Both the position numbers and the translations under genes were made by a program. The notes below the pieces were generated by a model, which saw only the letters and a program-made list of their open reading frames with translations, was not told the DNA's origin and made no database searches. This document shows positions 11,101 to 29,684 of a stretch of DNA of 32,393 nucleotides, piece by piece. The stretch covers positions 1-32,393 of the forward strand of contig JANYIT010000207.1 of the NCBI GenBank assembly GCA_025358725.1. The letters are read 5' to 3'. Numbering within the stretch: the first letter of the stretch is position 1; each line of letters begins with the position of its first letter. Source of the stretch: Chamaesiphon sp. GL140_3_metabinner_129_sub (lineage in GTDB: Bacteria; Cyanobacteriota; Cyanobacteriia; Cyanobacteriales; Chamaesiphonaceae).

Positions 11101-11790
11101 TTATTTATCGTCCGAGATCACTAAACCATCCTGAAGTCGAATCATCCGATTGGTTTGAGCTGCAACCTCTCGATCGTGTGTAACGATGATAATCGTAATC
11201 CCATTGCGATTTAGCTCAGTTAATAAATCCATTATTTCCCGAGAAGTTTCGCTATCTAGTGCGCCAGTTGGTTCATCTGCGAGCACCAGAGCTGGGTTAT
11301 TGACTAGCGCACGGGCAACTGCCACCCGCTGCTGTTGTCCACCCGAAAGTTGGGTCGGACGATTGTGAAGATAATTACCCAATCCAACTTGAGTCAAAGC
11401 TTGAATCGCGCGTTGACGACGTTTTTGCTTGGTAATATTGGCGTAAACCATTGGTAGCATCACATTTTCTAGCGCGGTAGAACGTGGCAACAAATTAAAT
11501 TGTTGAAACACGAAGCCAATCCGCTGATTCCGCACATAAGCTAATTGTTCGTCATCTAGATTCATTAAATTTCTGCCTTCCAATGAATAATCTCCCGCCG
11601 TCGATCGATCGAGACAGCCGATAATATTCATTAAAGTAGATTTTCCCGAACCAGATGCCCCCATGATGGCAACATACTCACCTTGCTCGATCTCGATATC
11701 AATTCCCTTGAGTACAGTTACTTTAACCTCACTCAAACGATAGACTTTGGTAATACCCTGCATCAAAATCATTGTTCTATTTTTAACCAA
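11101..11790 (-). CDS. ABC transporter ATP-binding protein, MacB/LolD/DevA-like
   Basis: Walker [11 protein letters not shown]-loop [17 protein letters not shown], signature [15 protein letters not shown], Walker [15 protein letters not shown]-loop ITIIIVTHD. Confidence 0.95.
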
Positions 11791-11805: not shown

Positions 11806-12891
11806 TTACTTCTTGGGGGAGTCTGTGAATCCTGGACGATCTAACAAACTCCGGTCAGTCGGGCTATTATTGCCTGGAGACATCTGGTTGCGTGGGGGTC
11901 TCTGGCTACCTGGAGACATCTGGCTGCGAGGCGTTCCTCTAATCGCCCGGACATCACTTCTTTTGTATGTACCACGCATACAACCAATGGTATAGGGAAA
12001 GTCCCAAGTTGCATGGTAATGATACATACTTACGTTTTTACCATTCCAATCAATGTTGTGACTATGCCCATGACATTGGTCTAGATCGGCACTTGCGAGG
12101 ATCTTACCACCGCTGCCATGCCGACCATAAATTCCAAAACCATCGAGACTATAACCCATAATTTCTGAGTGACCATCGCGCGTAGTCTTGTCAGGGAGAC
12201 AGGTACTGATGCTGTGATAATGATAAACTCCAGACGGTTCGGGATGTCCTTGGCAGGAGTCTTGGACTTCGTGAGCTAAAGCATCTCGACCTGGGTCGTC
12301 AAGCGCATTGAATAATACCGCACCTGTATTGAGTATCCCAATTGCGCCTGGTGTACAAGTAGCTTCTGCGGCTAAAATTGGATTGATTGGTAGCTCAACC
12401 AGCATTTTTTGGGCAGTGATACTATTTGGATTAGTATCATATTTATAAGCCTCTGCACTATTTTTGGGGTCAATCGGGTAGATCCCTGTGGGGTGATTGG
12501 GGAGGTCATTGGTGCTAAAGACTCGTTTGTCGTCTTTGACGGTCATTTTAAAGCGTTGTGGCCATGTCACGATACCATTAACCATCGCTTTGGCTGTCAA
12601 ATCATAAGTACCATCGCCCTTGATCCAGGTACCTTTGCGGGAGGCACCTCTACCATTTGCATTGACTCGACAGGGCCAAATCCAGCCGACTTTGGGACTG
12701 CTGGACAGTTTCCCGTCACCAATGGGCAAATGCTTGAGATTCATCGACCCAGATGGCATTTTGCTCAAGGGCAAATCGCTGTGATATACATTTGCAATGC
12801 TGGGGATATTAATTAAGCTCCCGCCCAGAAAGTTCACTGTGGCAATTAAGATCAATACCGCAACCGCCAGTTGAATGAAACGCCTCTTCAT
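11806..12891 (-). CDS. YHYH-motif secreted protein with Pro/Ser-rich C-terminal tail
   Basis: N-terminal signal/TM (FIQLAVAVLILIATVNFLGG); two YHYH motifs (GVYHYHSIST, SMYHYHATWDFPYTIGCMRG); C-terminal repeats (R)NQMSPG/RSQMSPG. Confidence 0.8.
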   Translation of the reverse strand: MKRRFIQLAVAVLILIATVNFLGGSLINIPSIANVYHSDLPLSKMPSGSMNLKHLPIGDGKLSSSPKVGWIWPCRVNANGRGASRKGTWIKGDGTYDLTAKAMVNGIVTWPQRFKMTVKDDKRVFSTNDLPNHPTGIYPIDPKNSAEAYKYDTNPNSITAQKMLVELPINPILAAEATCTPGAIGILNTGAVLFNALDDPGRDALAHEVQDSCQGHPEPSGVYHYHSISTCLPDKTTRDGHSEIMGYSLDGFGIYGRHGSGGKILASADLDQCHGHSHNIDWNGKNVSMYHYHATWDFPYTIGCMRGTYKRSDVRAIRGTPRSQMSPGSQRPPRNQMSPGNNSPTDRSLLDRPGFTDSPKK

Positions 12892-12995: not shown

Positions 12996-14594
12996 TTAGC
13001 CTGGAGGCCCACCGCCACCGCCTGGAGGCCCACTGCCCCCACCACCACCAGCACCTGGAGGCCCACCACCACCAGCACCGGGTGGCGGCCCTTTTGGTTG
13101 TTCGTCAGAACCACCAAATAAACTTTTCCACGAAAACCCGGATGGTGGTGGTTGGGTTGAGGGATTATTAACTAATATGTGTTCTGAACCATCCAGTCCA
13201 GTTTTAACTTCTGTCCGATTGTCGATCGTCACACCAGTAGTAATCGGGACGAATCTAGGTGGTTGATTAGGCGCACCAGTAAATACGCCTGTTTGATTTT
13301 TTTGACGGGTAATCGCGATCGTCGGGACTGTAATTACATTCTCCAATTTACCAACTTGGAATTCTGCGGAAATGTTCATTCCGGCTTTGAGTTCTTCGGC
13401 AGCATTTCCTTCGAGTGAAACCTTCACACCAAAACTGGTGACATTTTGTTCTACAGTCGATCGATTGGCGATTTGGGTGACTTTGCCCCGATAAGTTTTG
13501 GTAGGGTTGGCATCTGCTTTAATGGTGACTTCTTGCCCAACCTTCATTTTCGCAATATTTTTTTCAGCGACATTACAAACTGCTCGATTGGCAGAAACGA
13601 TCGATAGAATTGAGGAGGAAGTTGCTGAAGAAACGGAACTACCTGATGTCGTCGGCGTTACAAATGCACCTGGATCGGCATACTTAAAAGAGACGATCCC
13701 AGTAAAAGGAGCTTTGATAATCGTATCTTCCATCTGAGTCATCACATTTTGCAGTGAGCCACGCGCCGACATCACCGTAGCCCGAGCTTTTTCAATTTCT
13801 TCTGGTCGCGATCCTGCTTTTAATAAAGATAATGTTTGCTGTTGAGTTCTAATTCCAGCTTTGGCTTGGAGGATCTCTTCTTTTCTAGTTCCCTCTTGGA
13901 TCAACGATAATTTTTCTTGTGCTGCAACTACATTAGCTTTGGCACTATCGCGAATAGATAGTTTTTCATTCAGAGCTTGTAATGAAATTGCGCCTTGAGT
14001 TAAGAGCATTTGATTGCGACGAAATTCATCCTCCGCTTTTTTAGAAATCGCCACAGCACTGTCTAGTTGAGCCTTAGCTTGACCGATATCTTGAGGACGA
14101 TTACCAGCTACTAACTTGTTCAGGTTTACCTGGAGTTCTTCCAGGGCAGATTGTGCGCGGGCAATTTCTTGGGGTCTACTGCCAGAGATTAGTTGACGAA
14201 GATTTGCCTCAGATTCTGCTAATTTTCCTTTTGCTTCAATCAATTGGCCTTGGATGTTGGCATTGTCCATTGTGGCAATTACTTGCCCTTGGGTGACTTT
14301 ATCACCTTGATCGACCATCAGTTCTTTGAGAATTCCAGATGTTTTCGGACTGACATTTACGACCTTAATTGGCTCAACTGTGCCATTTGCTGAGACAGTA
14401 ATTGGTAAATTAGCCCGCTCTGCGGAGACTGGAACTGGTCGTTGTTGGTCTGTTTCTTTCGATCCAGAAAACTGGTTGTAAACGATCCAACCACCGCTCA
14501 GAATTAAAAATAAGCTGCCTAGCCCAAAACCCCAGCTAACGATCGACTGTTTACTGATATTTTTGAATGGAGATATATCTGACATAATTGGCAC
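12996..14594 (-). CDS. HlyD/DevB/MacA-like periplasmic adaptor (efflux RND/ABC membrane-fusion protein) with Gly/Pro-rich C-terminal tail
   Basis: One N-terminal TM; lipoyl-like halves (PKTSGILKELMVDQGDKVTQGQVIATMD, IIKAPFTGIVSFKYADPGAFV); repeated coiled-coil motif GxRPxEIxxAxA; tail GGGGPPGAGGGGGSGPPGGGGGPPG. Confidence 0.92.
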   Translation of the reverse strand: MPIMSDISPFKNISKQSIVSWGFGLGSLFLILSGGWIVYNQFSGSKETDQQRPVPVSAERANLPITVSANGTVEPIKVVNVSPKTSGILKELMVDQGDKVTQGQVIATMDNANIQGQLIEAKGKLAESEANLRQLISGSRPQEIARAQSALEELQVNLNKLVAGNRPQDIGQAKAQLDSAVAISKKAEDEFRRNQMLLTQGAISLQALNEKLSIRDSAKANVVAAQEKLSLIQEGTRKEEILQAKAGIRTQQQTLSLLKAGSRPEEIEKARATVMSARGSLQNVMTQMEDTIIKAPFTGIVSFKYADPGAFVTPTTSGSSVSSATSSSILSIVSANRAVCNVAEKNIAKMKVGQEVTIKADANPTKTYRGKVTQIANRSTVEQNVTSFGVKVSLEGNAAEELKAGMNISAEFQVGKLENVITVPTIAITRQKNQTGVFTGAPNQPPRFVPITTGVTIDNRTEVKTGLDGSEHILVNNPSTQPPPSGFSWKSLFGGSDEQPKGPPPGAGGGGPPGAGGGGGSGPPGGGGGPPG

Positions 14595-14807: not shown

Positions 14808-16745
14808 TTATGCTTGAGCAACACGATCAAATTCAATTTTGCCATAATCAAGCTTGATCACATGATCGGCCAGATGGAAGTATCGATCGTCATGAGTGAT
14901 GACGATGACTATTTTATTTTCCTGCTTTAAGTTGAGTAACATCTCCTTATAGAATAGTTCCCGAAATTTAGGCTCTTGATCGGATGCCCATTCATCAAAC
15001 ACATAAATTGGCCGATCTTCCAGATAAGTTTCTAGTAGTGCTAGACGTTTGCGTTGACCTTGTGACAGGTTGGTAGTCGATAGCACACCATCCTTGACAC
15101 TTACTTTGTGCGATAACTGAAGTTGTCGGAGGTAGCCGTTTACTTCTTGGTCGAGCGTATCACGCTCGAATCCTAGATAACTATCAAATAGGTAAAAGTC
15201 CGAAAATACCGCAGAAAAATGTTGACGATACCACTCGACATTATCGTCAGTAACGGGTTTTCCATTTAGCTCGATCGATCCTGATTGGGGAAGATATAAG
15301 CCGGTAATTAGTTTGGCTAAAGTTGATTTACCACTACCATTACCACCAATAATAAATAGCAATTCACCTGGTTGCAAAGATAGATTAATCGGGCCGAGCA
15401 TAAATCCATTTTCATCTGGTCTAGGCGGTGGCATAAATGAACCTGAACCAGTTCTACCCGGCTGATTGGGTAAACCTCTCTGTTCTTGCGGTGAAGAGCC
15501 AGGTCGGGCATTTGCAGTTAGACCTTCAGGATGAGCTGGTGGATGTCCATTTTCGCCAAATCCTTCTGGATGAGCTGGTGGATGTCCATTTTCGCCAAAC
15601 CCTTCAGGATGAGCTGGTGGATGTCCATTTTCGCCAAATCCTTCTGGATGAGCTGGTGGATGTCCATTTTCGCCAAACCCTTCAGGATGGGCTGGCGGAT
15701 GTCCATTTTTACCAAATCCTTCTGGAGGAAGTTCTGGTAATTCAGGTTGATATGTATAGACAACATCTTTGAATTCCAGCTTACAAGATGGACTCACCTT
15801 CAAGGGAATTGTTTCAGATTCACCAAGGCTCATCAAAGACAGTTCCATGCGTTCGATCTTTCTGAGCGAGATATTTCCACGCACTAACTCAGGAATTTTA
15901 CTTAAAAGATTTTGCATCGGCAATGCCAAGAATGTCCCGATCAAAACATAAGTTGCTAATGTGCCGGGTTGGAATGCTAAAAAGAAAGGCAATCCAAATA
16001 GAATAAAGCCCATACTGGCAAACTGAGACATTTGACCAAAACCATTGGCGACAGCAAAACTCTTCATCGCCTTGGTATTCAAACTACGCAGTTTCGATAC
16101 AGTTCCTTTGAGGTCTTTTTCAAGAAATGCTGCTCTCTTCGATCGATTGAGTTTGAGTTCTTTAGTTCCATTCATCATGGCTCGATAATGCTTGAAGAGA
16201 GTGTCTTCTTCTTCACGAGAACTAAAGAATAATATTTGTGCTTTGTTCAAGATCGCCTGAACAAACAACATTGTTACAACACTAGAAACAACCGTAAGTG
16301 TAAACAGTTCGGGAGATAAAAGTGCAAAGAAAACAAAGCAGCCAACTACTGTCGCAAAATCAGTACACAACCCTGGTACTGACGATACAGCATGAGTTAG
16401 GTTGCGAACATCTTCTGTCAATGTAACAATCAGTCTATTTTCTTTTAGTCTTTCTAAATGTTCTAGTGGTGAAGATAAAATATTTTGGCTTAACTTTAAT
16501 CGCAGCGAATAGATGGCATTCTGCGACAGGAAAATCAGCATATATTGAGAGACTATACTTGTAGCTATAATAAAAACAGCTACTACAGCAAAGAATAGTA
16601 AATCATTTGGCGTACGACCTTCCCGAACAGCCCTATTAATTAAGGAAATCATCAGCGCATTACCACCACCACTGACTAAGCCAGCGATGACAGCAATGGC
16701 CATCTGTTTCCAAGATATTTCTAATAGAAATTTAATAATTTCCAT
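14808..16745 (-). CDS. SyrD/PvdE-type (cyclic-peptide-exporter-like) ABC transporter, fused TMD-NBD, with repeat insertion in the NBD
   Basis: About six hydrophobic segments; A-loop VVYTY; Walker A GGNGSGKST; signature LSQGQRKRLAL; Walker B IYVFDEWASDQEP; VITHDD. Insert of (HPEGFGENGHPPA)n between A-loop and Walker A. Confidence 0.9.
   Translation of the reverse strand: MEIIKFLLEISWKQMAIAVIAGLVSGGGNALMISLINRAVREGRTPNDLLFFAVVAVFIIATSIVSQYMLIFLSQNAIYSLRLKLSQNILSSPLEHLERLKENRLIVTLTEDVRNLTHAVSSVPGLCTDFATVVGCFVFFALLSPELFTLTVVSSVVTMLFVQAILNKAQILFFSSREEEDTLFKHYRAMMNGTKELKLNRSKRAAFLEKDLKGTVSKLRSLNTKAMKSFAVANGFGQMSQFASMGFILFGLPFFLAFQPGTLATYVLIGTFLALPMQNLLSKIPELVRGNISLRKIERMELSLMSLGESETIPLKVSPSCKLEFKDVVYTYQPELPELPPEGFGKNGHPPAHPEGFGENGHPPAHPEGFGENGHPPAHPEGFGENGHPPAHPEGFGENGHPPAHPEGLTANARPGSSPQEQRGLPNQPGRTGSGSFMPPPRPDENGFMLGPINLSLQPGELLFIIGGNGSGKSTLAKLITGLYLPQSGSIELNGKPVTDDNVEWYRQHFSAVFSDFYLFDSYLGFERDTLDQEVNGYLRQLQLSHKVSVKDGVLSTTNLSQGQRKRLALLETYLEDRPIYVFDEWASDQEPKFRELFYKEMLLNLKQENKIVIVITHDDRYFHLADHVIKLDYGKIEFDRVAQA
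15529..15723. repeat. Coding tandem repeat, 5 x 39 bp (13 aa), alternating A/B variants
   Basis: Units at 15529, 15568, 15607, 15646, 15685. Units end ...AAATCCTTCT (1,3,5) or ...AAACCCTTCA (2,4); unit 5 is diverged. Confidence 0.95.
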
Positions 16746-16801: not shown

Positions 16802-17971
16802 CTAAATCTTCTCAAACAGAATTCCTTCAATCCCAACCCCTGGAGAAAAAGAAAATGCAATTCCATTTACAGGTGGAGGGTTCTCGATCGAGTTATCTCC
16901 CCTACCAGCTACTGTACCTTGACTACTTGAATGCTCATTCAGTCTCAACATCATTCGCTCCATCACAAACAAAATCGAACAACTTAGCATATTGCCATAT
17001 TGACGGAGAATCTCCCAACTATCTGCGACTTGCTCGTCATTTAAGCCCAATGAAAGCTGCGATCTTTCAATAATTCGTGTCCCACCAGGATGAATTGCCC
17101 ATAGATCGATATTCTCTTTAGTCAGTTGATGGCTAGCTAGAAAATCCTTGACGATTGGTCCTACATCAGACTGAATATAATCAGGTAATTGGCGAGAAAG
17201 TAGGCAAGTAATACCATTATCTTTAACACCTAAAGTAATACCATCTTCAGTGTTTTTTGCTAGGTAACTAAAGTTATCTCTAATTACAAATTTGCCTCGT
17301 CCGATCAATTTATCTTCGACATCAGCTCCGATCACCGCAGCAGCACACCCATCCCCAAAAATGCTATGGATGATAATGTCATTAAGATTGTCATTAAATA
17401 CTGCATTAACAGAACTCAACTCTAAACAAACAATTAGAGCTTTACTTTCAGGATTGGCCCGCACATGATCGCTACAAACTCTCAATCCAGTCATGGCAGC
17501 AGCACATCCCATAAAGTTAATCGGAATGCGCGCGATATTTCGTTTGAGACCCAAACTGTCAATCAGTTTAGTATCGATTCCAGGCGCAATAAAGCCAGTA
17601 CTAGTCACAAAAACAATCAGACCAATTTGATCTTCAATCTTGCCTTCCTGTGGATCTGTAGCGGCAAACAAAGCCTTGCTAGCAACCTCATTGGCGAGCG
17701 AAAATGCATATTCTTCATACATTTGCATCCGCTTCTCGATCGTGTTTTTTTCTTGACTAAAGGCAACCGTCTCCTCTGTGAGCAAGTTGATCGCCAGATG
17801 TCTGGTATGAATTCGGGTATTTTCATAAATCTTTTCGATTCGATGCTTATTGCGTTCCAAACAACTAAGACTAGCTAAAAATTTAGCAGCATCAGATTGC
17901 AGTAATACGTTGTTCGGTGTGCCAGTAGCAAAACCTTCAATGACAGGTAAGAATGGGCTAGAACTAGTCAT
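16802..17971 (-). CDS. Type III polyketide synthase (chalcone/stilbene synthase-like)
   Basis: 389 aa; active-site Cys in INFMGCAAAMTGLRV, His in WAIHPGGTRIIE, Asn in YGNMLSCSILFV; TSTGFIAPGID; C-terminal FSFSPGVGIEGILFE. Confidence 0.93.
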   Translation of the reverse strand: MTSSSPFLPVIEGFATGTPNNVLLQSDAAKFLASLSCLERNKHRIEKIYENTRIHTRHLAINLLTEETVAFSQEKNTIEKRMQMYEEYAFSLANEVASKALFAATDPQEGKIEDQIGLIVFVTSTGFIAPGIDTKLIDSLGLKRNIARIPINFMGCAAAMTGLRVCSDHVRANPESKALIVCLELSSVNAVFNDNLNDIIIHSIFGDGCAAAVIGADVEDKLIGRGKFVIRDNFSYLAKNTEDGITLGVKDNGITCLLSRQLPDYIQSDVGPIVKDFLASHQLTKENIDLWAIHPGGTRIIERSQLSLGLNDEQVADSWEILRQYGNMLSCSILFVMERMMLRLNEHSSSQGTVAGRGDNSIENPPPVNGIAFSFSPGVGIEGILFEKI

Positions 17972-18192: not shown

Positions 18193-19887
18193 TTAGATCG
18201 AACCGATTCCAATCCAACCTGAGATCACGTATTGCATCGTTATCTGTAACGCACGAGGATGAAAATGTTCTTTGAAGAAACCATAATTCTCTCGTTGTGC
18301 CATTCTTGATGGATTACCCAAGTAATATTTCATTAAAATTGGTAATCGATCGACAAAGAAGTTCTGTGAATCTGCCCACTCGACATCAAATTTTGCAGAT
18401 TCCTCTCTCACAATATCTTCACTAATAATATTGGCAAAACCACTTTTTTGTTGTGGCAATACATGATGCACCCGATGGGGTCCCAAACCTGCGGTCAGGA
18501 AGCTATCAATATATTTATTGCCAATCATCGTTAGATCGTAAGAATTCTGAAGCTGAAAGACAGCCCAATCAGGAGCTTTTTCTACCCCGGCATCAGCATC
18601 ATGATCTGCCTGTGGTACTGTTTCCAGCTTTGGTAAATCTGTTTCAAAATCATGACTAGCAACAATCATGAAAGTACTAATCCAGACAGTAACAAAGAAC
18701 TGTGCAAACCAGGCCAGGAATTCACCTCGAACTGCGAATAAAATCAGTTCCCCCAATAGCAATGCATGAATGCCAAAACTACCGATAAAATGAGGCAAAG
18801 CTAGTCTCCAAGAACCATACATGTCTGAGACACCAGTTCTAGCTGCCATAAATACTAGTTCGACAATTCGAGCAAACATCCCTGTGGAGATATGCCCAAT
18901 TTTCTGAGCGGTATGCACCGGAATTCGATAAAACCGTGGAACTTCCAGCATGAATGTAAACACATTCTTCTTGATATCAACCTCTGTTTGGGTAAAAGGA
19001 TGATGCAGTAATGTATGACCATCAGTGACCACTAATGCCAGTGGGACATAGTTAATATCAAAAACGTTGGCAATTGCTTTATTCAGGCCGACTTGAGGTC
19101 GATGAATCAAATAATGTCCGACTCCTGCGAGAGAAATTCTGAACATCGACATTAAGACTACAAACAGATATATTGGCATATACTGTTGGTAATCTAAATA
19201 CAACCACTGAACCGCAAAATATAGTATCAAAATCATGATACTTACGGCATTAAAGAGAGAATCCATTTTAGCAACTTTTTGCTTGAAGTCTTTCTCGTAT
19301 ACTCTGTCTTTTATTTTAAAGAGTAGCTGATCTTTATTTCTGAAGTCATATCTCGGTGTATCTCTCCAACCATTAAAATCTTGTTTGAATAGAAATGGTG
19401 GGGCGTTATATTTAGGATGAATATGCTCTGGTCTTGCCGATTTACCTAGAGAATATTTCTCAATAATTTTTTTTACTTTCGCAGGATTGGGATGAAAGAT
19501 ATTCACAATTGTGGTGATATCTCTGTTTTTGGTGCGCCCAATAAAGAATTGTCCACCTGGATGCTTAGCAATAAATGGGGTCAAATCATAAGCTTCGCCA
19601 TCGTAAATCCACACGTTTGGCAACGGTTCGCCATCGACAGGATGAGGTGGTGGCTCTGTCTTGTCATCGTCTAGTGGACGAATTAATGGAATCATCCCCG
19701 TCTGATTTCGAGGCACCTGATTAGAAGGAGGTGCTTCTACAGTTGGTGGCGTTTCTACTCCACTCAACATTTCGGCAGGCTGACTAGTTTCGTCCGATTT
19801 ATTTTGTGGTGTTGTTTCGGCTGGGTTGGTTAACAATATTACTCCATCTATATTGTTAGCAGCATTTGGTTCATTGCTTGAACTCAT
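18193..19887 (-). CDS. Cytochrome b5-domain / membrane fatty-acid desaturase fusion with Pro-rich N-terminus
   Basis: Cyt b5 motif YDLTPFIAKHPGGQFFIG; His boxes HYLIH, HTLLHHP and HRVHH; several TM segments. Confidence 0.85.
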   Translation of the reverse strand: MSSSNEPNAANNIDGVILLTNPAETTPQNKSDETSQPAEMLSGVETPPTVEAPPSNQVPRNQTGMIPLIRPLDDDKTEPPPHPVDGEPLPNVWIYDGEAYDLTPFIAKHPGGQFFIGRTKNRDITTIVNIFHPNPAKVKKIIEKYSLGKSARPEHIHPKYNAPPFLFKQDFNGWRDTPRYDFRNKDQLLFKIKDRVYEKDFKQKVAKMDSLFNAVSIMILILYFAVQWLYLDYQQYMPIYLFVVLMSMFRISLAGVGHYLIHRPQVGLNKAIANVFDINYVPLALVVTDGHTLLHHPFTQTEVDIKKNVFTFMLEVPRFYRIPVHTAQKIGHISTGMFARIVELVFMAARTGVSDMYGSWRLALPHFIGSFGIHALLLGELILFAVRGEFLAWFAQFFVTVWISTFMIVASHDFETDLPKLETVPQADHDADAGVEKAPDWAVFQLQNSYDLTMIGNKYIDSFLTAGLGPHRVHHVLPQQKSGFANIISEDIVREESAKFDVEWADSQNFFVDRLPILMKYYLGNPSRMAQRENYGFFKEHFHPRALQITMQYVISGWIGIGSI

Positions 19888-20223: not shown

Positions 20224-20499
20224 TTATTTAGTCCGTTCAAAAACTCTCAACAGCAGAAAACCAATCGCTGCTAATTCTGGGGGAGCATTTTGTAACGTTC
20301 CAAACAAGGCTTGGGCTTGTTCGTCATTATTGAGCAACTCACCTAATAATTGTCGATCGTGCTCAGTTAAGAGTGGTGGCTGGTTGTTACGCTCTCCTTG
20401 AGGGTTTCCTTGCTGGTTGCCTTGAGGGTGTGGCGGACGCTCTTGATTAGGATGTGGTGGTCGCTCTTGATTGGAATGCGGGGGTCTCGATCCAAACAT
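20224..20499 (-). CDS. Small Pro/His/Gln-rich protein of unknown function
   Basis: 91 aa; repeats (NQERPPHP)n and QGNQQGNPQG followed by helical LTEHDRQLLGELLNNDEQAQALFGTLQ. Confidence 0.6.
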   Translation of the reverse strand: MFGSRPPHSNQERPPHPNQERPPHPQGNQQGNPQGERNNQPPLLTEHDRQLLGELLNNDEQAQALFGTLQNAPPELAAIGFLLLRVFERTK

Positions 20500-29218: not shown

Positions 29219-29653
29219 GTGACTTACCGCAACCCCACACCCACTGTAGATATTATTATCGAACTGATCGATAGAATCCACCGCCCCATCATCTTGATCG
29301 AACGTCTCAATCCCCCTCACGGCTGGGCATTACCTGGGGGTTTTGTAGATTATGGGGAATCCTTAGAAACAGCCGCAGTGCGGGAAGCAAAAGAAGAAAT
29401 CGGGCTGGATGTACAACTGCTAGAACAATTTCACGTTTATTCAGCACCCGATCGCGATCCCAGACAGCATACTATTAGTATTGTATTTATTGCCACTGCG
29501 ACAGGCGTACCGATCGCCCAAGATGATGCCAAAAGTGTTGGCATCTTTGCCCCGTGGGAAATTCCCCCACAACTATGTTTCGATCATGGGCAAATAGTTC
29601 AAGATTATTTACAATATCGAAATTACCATCATCGTCCAGGAATTAGGCTTTAG
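29219..29653 (+). CDS. NUDIX hydrolase
   Basis: GTG start; Nudix box [26 protein letters not shown]. Confidence 0.93.
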
Positions 29654-29684
29654 GCTTTAGGCTTTAGGCTTTAGGTTTTAGGGG
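29643..29684. repeat. Heptanucleotide tandem repeat (TTAGGCT)4-TTAGGTT-TTAGGGG
   Basis: Direct reading; overlaps the 3' end of the NUDIX gene. Confidence 0.95.

Follow-up and report, generated by a model that had tools for sequence, protein, structure and literature searches.

A long Pro/His/Gly-rich loop, predicted to be disordered, follows the A-loop of the ATPase domain in a clade of TIGR01194 ABC exporters

The ABC exporter encoded in the window, a 32,393-nt stretch of a Chamaesiphon draft genome, carries a long Pro/His/Gly-rich loop at the turn between strands β1 and β2 of its nucleotide-binding domain (NBD), and a 39-bp tandem repeat lies inside this loop. The insert had been taken as the peculiarity of one repeat; instead, it marks a whole exporter clade in two phyla, and the repeat units differ between lineages. 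The best explanation, to which we give slightly better than even odds (about 0.55), is that the loop may be a disordered appendage resembling the regulatory insertion (RI) of CFTR, grown by in-frame slippage and selected on its composition. The coordinates of the features are collected in Table 1.

Table 1. Features of the exporter gene and its surroundings in the window
Feature	Coordinates	Strand	Basis
ABC exporter (TMD+NBD), TIGR01194 subfamily, 645 aa	14808..16745	-	NCBIfam, Pfam ABC_membrane and ABC_tran, Foldseek
β1 strand ending in A-loop Tyr332 (LEFKDVVYTY)	15750..15779	-	Y332 invariant in 57 exporters; AF2 strand 323–332
Walker A GGNGSGKST, residues 467–475	15321..15347	-	G467, N469, G470, S471, G472, K473 invariant in 57 exporters
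Pro/His/Gly-rich loop, residues 333–447, between NBD β1 and β2	15405..15749	-	AF2 and comparison with related exporters
39-bp/78-bp tandem array (5.2/2.6 copies)	15523..15726	-	TRF, unit comparison, shuffles, uniqueness in genome
Type III polyketide synthase (PKS), adjoining exporter	16802..17971	-	Pfam Chal_sti_synt_N/C; same neighbour in nearly all operon loci examined
Cytochrome b5 + membrane desaturase/hydroxylase-like protein, Pro-rich N-terminus	18193..19887	-	Pfam Cyt-b5; conserved neighbour; His boxes read from sequence
HlyD/MacA-type adaptor, Pro/Gly-rich C-terminus (24-bp repeat 13038–13086)	12996..14594	-	TRF, profile matches; relatives' C-termini compared
YHYH-domain protein	11806..12891	-	Pfam YHYH 66.4 bits; homologue near operon in Nostoc L064
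MacB/LolD-type ATPase	11101..11790	-	Profile match; conserved in several cyanobacterial operons
91-aa protein, His/Pro-rich repeat N-terminus, conserved ~49-aa C-terminus	20224..20499	-	Homologues upstream of same operon, Microcystis L063 and L143

The exporter is a TMD–NBD half-transporter in which the Walker A, signature, Walker B and H-loop motifs are present, and it scores 418.6 bits against the NCBIfam model TIGR01194, above the curated cut-off of 286.2; its relatives score 398–454 bits. In an alignment of 57 exporters, G467–K473, L560–Q564, I580–E585 and H618 are invariant or nearly so, and the A-loop residue Y332 is invariant. Furthermore, Foldseek matches the fold to MsbA, PCAT1 and TM287/288, which corresponds to a type IV exporter fold. 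In its whole-protein score and its conserved NBD motifs, the protein therefore resembles the TIGR01194 exporters (SyrD/PvdE/YojI type), but it differs from them in a loop of ~110 aa at the β1–β2 turn. Its neighbours also differ, being a type III PKS and a desaturase, with no NRPS or peptide-precursor gene noted in the window; these neighbours argue for a substrate other than a (cyclic) peptide.

AlphaFold2, run on the 57-sequence alignment (mean pLDDT 80.3), predicts a strand at residues 323–332 and another at 448–457, followed by the Walker A strand, and leaves residues 348–444 without structure at a pLDDT below 50. Since the two strands flank the predicted disorder, the insert would fill the β1–β2 turn, directly after the A-loop residue. 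The array is thus situated between the A-loop strand (VVYTY, residues 328–332) and β2, ahead of Walker A. The sequence-only reading had placed the repeat inside the NBD β-subdomain and had named an AlphaFold model and an alignment of homologues as checks on this position; all three agree, the repeat region forming an unstructured loop between β1 and β2 in the model and the long inserts of the clade all lying at the same turn in the alignment.

Tandem Repeats Finder (TRF) detects the array at a period of 39 bp (5.2 copies, score 345) and at a period of 78 bp (2.6 copies, score 380), with copy numbers that rest on a 4.39-Mb draft assembly of 408 contigs, whereas the top score among 200 codon-shuffled versions of the gene is 47. 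In codon register on the minus strand, residues 340–404 consist of PPEGFGKNGHPPA followed by 4 × HPEGFGENGHPPA, after which a degenerate sixth unit begins as HPEGLTANARP. At the DNA level, unit 2 equals unit 4 and unit 3 equals unit 5; the two types alternate and differ at 2 synonymous positions only, and the terminal units of the array are diverged variants. Units 2–3 match units 4–5 at every one of their 78 bp, and at period 78 the exact run extends to 89 bp; hence, the most recent step of array growth is a 78-bp duplication. The earlier claims of a 39-bp repeat at 15529–15723 (this array, in a phase shifted by a few bases), of A–B alternation, of expansion by a 78-bp higher-order unit and of a preserved reading frame all hold, the array lying in frame within the exporter ORF and 39 being a multiple of 3. 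A search of the source genome returned no second occurrence of the 39-bp unit, which rules out a genome-wide repeat or mobile element.

Homologues were gathered by whole-genome searches and from GTDB contigs, and the residues between the two strands were counted. In the first survey, about two dozen exporters had 17–108 extra residues, against 0–6 in almost all others; the exception outside the clade is one Alteromonas protein with 21 residues at the turn, which are not Pro-rich. After further members were added, the loop of the operon exporters ranged from 4 to 172 aa, and a Pro/His/Gly-rich insert of 19–172 aa is located at the same turn in all exporters of the operon clade except three basal ones. 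The long-loop exporters share one operon type, consisting of a cytochrome-b5 desaturase, a type III PKS and the exporter, which is found in cyanobacteria, Nocardia, Williamsia and Kitasatospora. In Nocardia, the exporter is present in 62 of the 150 sampled genomes. TIGR01194 paralogues that share a genome and genus with operon exporters (L034, L035 and L036) keep the short turn, and a genome-wide low-complexity bias is thereby ruled out.

In the phylogenetic tree, the operon exporters form a single clade (100/100), within which the long loops form a single clade (96/87), and its sister group is composed of three operon members from cyanobacteria in which the turn is 4 residues long (HPEG, HPDG or QPEG). 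On the 96/87 support, the long loop would have a single origin. The three basal operon members have the 4-aa turn only, so transport as such can probably do without the loop. The actinobacterial exporters are nested within the cyanobacterial ones, which suggests that they were exchanged between phyla. Meanwhile, the window exporter groups with Microcystis and not with its own congeners (G004 and G006), suggesting that the operon was transferred horizontally.

Across the clade, the membrane domain measures 332–338 aa, whereas the loop measures 4–172 aa. Between relatives whose TM identity is 95% or more (95–98.5%), the loops differ by up to 28 aa: 103 versus 75 aa in Microcystis L143 and L063 (TM identity 95%), and 172 versus 146 aa in Nocardia L202 and L204 (TM identity 98.5%). 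Copy number thus differs between close relatives in both genera, as in a VNTR; the length variability proposed earlier is found between close species. In Nocardia, the loop reaches 163–172 aa (L202, L233 and other loci). The repeat units are 39/78 bp in the window, 36 bp × 4.3 in Microcystis L143, a 2.5 × 24 bp pattern in L063, and 78, 33, 24 and 21 bp in Nocardia, with few exceptions multiples of 3 over the lineages; the repeats have separate origins in different lineages. In-frame intragenic minisatellites likewise have units that are a multiple of 3, recent perfect duplications and length variation, but the window array is located inside an ATPase catalytic domain, not in a surface protein or at a terminus.

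Compared with its length, the make-up of the loop is steady. Pro and His amount to 27.5% and 12.0% of the loop in cyanobacteria and to 29.6% and 6.9% in actinobacteria (ranges over both groups 27–30% and 7–12%), whereas the other parts of these proteins have ~3% and 2.3%. At aligned loop sites between relatives, Pro is kept at 91%, Gly at 85% and His at 78%. The Nocardia loops share a conserved C-terminal element, PDVNG..DHGG.D.RPVPLGPPP. Selection was assessed by Nei–Gojobori counts on close pairs, which are simple pairwise counts with lineages shared between pairs. The pooled pN/pS of the loop is 0.27 and that of the core 0.105, and gap-free pairs give 0.10–0.29 for the loop, dN/dS on repeats being open to bias from alignment and gene conversion that gap-free pairs lessen but do not remove. 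These ratios indicate that the loop is under purifying selection, and a free contingency locus is thereby rejected. With a constant composition, a low pN/pS and a variable length, the loop is neither fixed nor free: its length is loose within wide limits, and its make-up is constrained.

Clusters with a type III PKS and cytochrome b5 have already been described in cyanobacteria, with their product unknown (PMC8086630). The window has the same arrangement, a cytochrome b5 gene beside the type III PKS together with an ABC transporter, and the Chamaesiphon minutus PCC 6605 cluster of that paper, with its cytochrome b5 gene downstream of the PKS, matches locus L151. The difference is that no transporter loop is mentioned in the part of the paper that describes the clusters. 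Between 11101 and 12996, no FtsX/MacB-type permease is found beside the MacB-type ATPase, where other cyanobacterial operons have one; the YHYH-domain gene sits between the adaptor and this ATPase, and a 75%-identical permease is located on another contig (G000:C141). The 91-aa protein has an N-terminal repeat with a period of 24 bp and no Pfam match, and a survey of 21 genomes recovered its core from the window and two Microcystis only. Beside the operon in Microcystis L143 (3386–4090), a 235-aa protein contains HPPHPAGIQPPHPEGMQPP-type repeats and has only a sub-threshold Pfam match to YflT. Further short tandem repeats in the window are located in the Pro/Gly-rich C-terminus of the adaptor (13038–13086) and the C-terminus of the YHYH protein (11873–11925), and a TTAGGCT heptamer repeated 5.7 times (29643–29682) spans the end of a NUDIX-like ORF (29219–29653).

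The known precedent for such an insert is CFTR NBD1, in which ATP is bound by W401 and residues 403/405–436, right behind it, form the disordered RI; removal of the RI increases NBD1 stability and rescues the trafficking of the F508del protein. The RI is described as absent from the NBDs of other ABC transporters (PMC7350234). In the AF2 prediction of the window exporter, a disordered insert likewise lies between the A-loop residue and β2, the CFTR side of this comparison being taken from papers; both inserts come right after an ATP-stacking aromatic residue and before Walker A. However, the RI of CFTR is one segment of ~32 aa with a PKA site, whereas the bacterial loop is tandem-repetitive, Pro/His/Gly-rich and hypervariable. 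Because composition and repeats differ, the likeness to the RI is drawn for the way of working only. CFTR is not among the top 50 Foldseek matches listed for the exporter, and the proposed equivalence is one of topology and literature rather than of superposition.

In the favoured explanation, a short turn resembling the Y-HPEG-E of the basal members would have been replaced, once only, by a long disordered Pro/His/Gly-rich loop, which would grow and shrink through in-frame slippage or unequal recombination, the window repeat being its latest growth. Such a loop would work like the CFTR RI, as a flexible cytosolic appendage that is exposed to solvent next to the ATP site and may tune NBD dimerisation and ATPase activity or dock a partner. 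What selection would maintain is the composition, chiefly Pro, together with some minimal reach; neither sequence nor length would be held fixed. By analogy, we infer that the loop may have a regulatory or docking function. A bolder version, in which the insert would be a composition-coded, hypervariable docking hub or rheostat acting with Pro/His-rich partner tails and the repeat number would tune export, is unlikely.

The loop may, on the other hand, merely do no harm, the β1–β2 turn tolerating inserts and replication slippage in Pro/Gly codons filling it. The large and rapid length changes, the recent perfect duplications, the lineage-specific repeat units and the existence of operon members with a short loop are all consistent with this, but it remains rather unlikely in view of the pN/pS of the loop, both pooled and gap-free, the similar loop composition in cyanobacterial and GC-rich actinobacterial hosts, the 0–6 aa at which other exporters with the same turn remain, and the C-terminal element conserved in the Nocardia loops. 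Recruitment of the Pro-rich N-terminus of the desaturase or of the small His/Pro protein, so that a hydrophobic product would be handed to the exporter, is decidedly doubtful. Pro/His/Gly-rich segments do occur on several cluster proteins (the desaturase N-terminus, the 91-aa protein and the HlyD C-terminus), and in cyanobacteria longer loops go with desaturases whose N-terminus is richer in Pro (rho 0.76, n = 13, without phylogenetic correction); yet the sample is small and phylogenetically non-independent, and rho falls to 0.48 over all members. Furthermore, the Pro/Gly tail of HlyD should be periplasmic, judging from the topology of its family, and thus would not contact the NBD. The small His/Pro protein is missing from most long-loop genomes and is rejected as an obligatory partner.

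The repeat had also been read as His-rich and possibly metal-binding. A loop that senses metal and gates the ATPase by Zn, Cu or Ni would suit the 10 His in the window loop and the up to ~20% His in some relatives, but it is highly improbable: the core operon has no metal gene, His is less conserved than Pro, and because several members have 0–1 His, metal sensing is unlikely as a general function of the loop. The constant is Pro, which makes the earlier metal proposal a weak one. Finally, a mis-assembled copy number is hardly credible as an account of the loop. Exact 78-bp repeats in a draft of 408 contigs invite the suspicion, but a Microcystis genome of 2 contigs has 4.3 near-perfect 36-bp units in a loop of 103 aa, and long loops are present in many independent assemblies; the loop region is certain, and the exact copy number alone is in question.

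Searches of the literature turned up nothing relevant on tandem repeats, His-rich or Pro-rich, inserted in NBDs. The type of gene cluster is thus known, and what is new is a TIGR01194 exporter subclade with a hypervariable NBD insert, predicted to be disordered, for which no report was found. A clade of bacterial exporters in which the turn that carries the RI in CFTR holds a disordered insert, large and evolvable, is a tractable system, in which natural variants with 4 to 172 aa at this turn offer a route to the effects of inserts beside the ATP site on NBD dimerisation and transport. The loop also serves to recognise the transporter of a type III polyketide pathway, uncharacterised so far, which cyanobacteria and Nocardia have in common.
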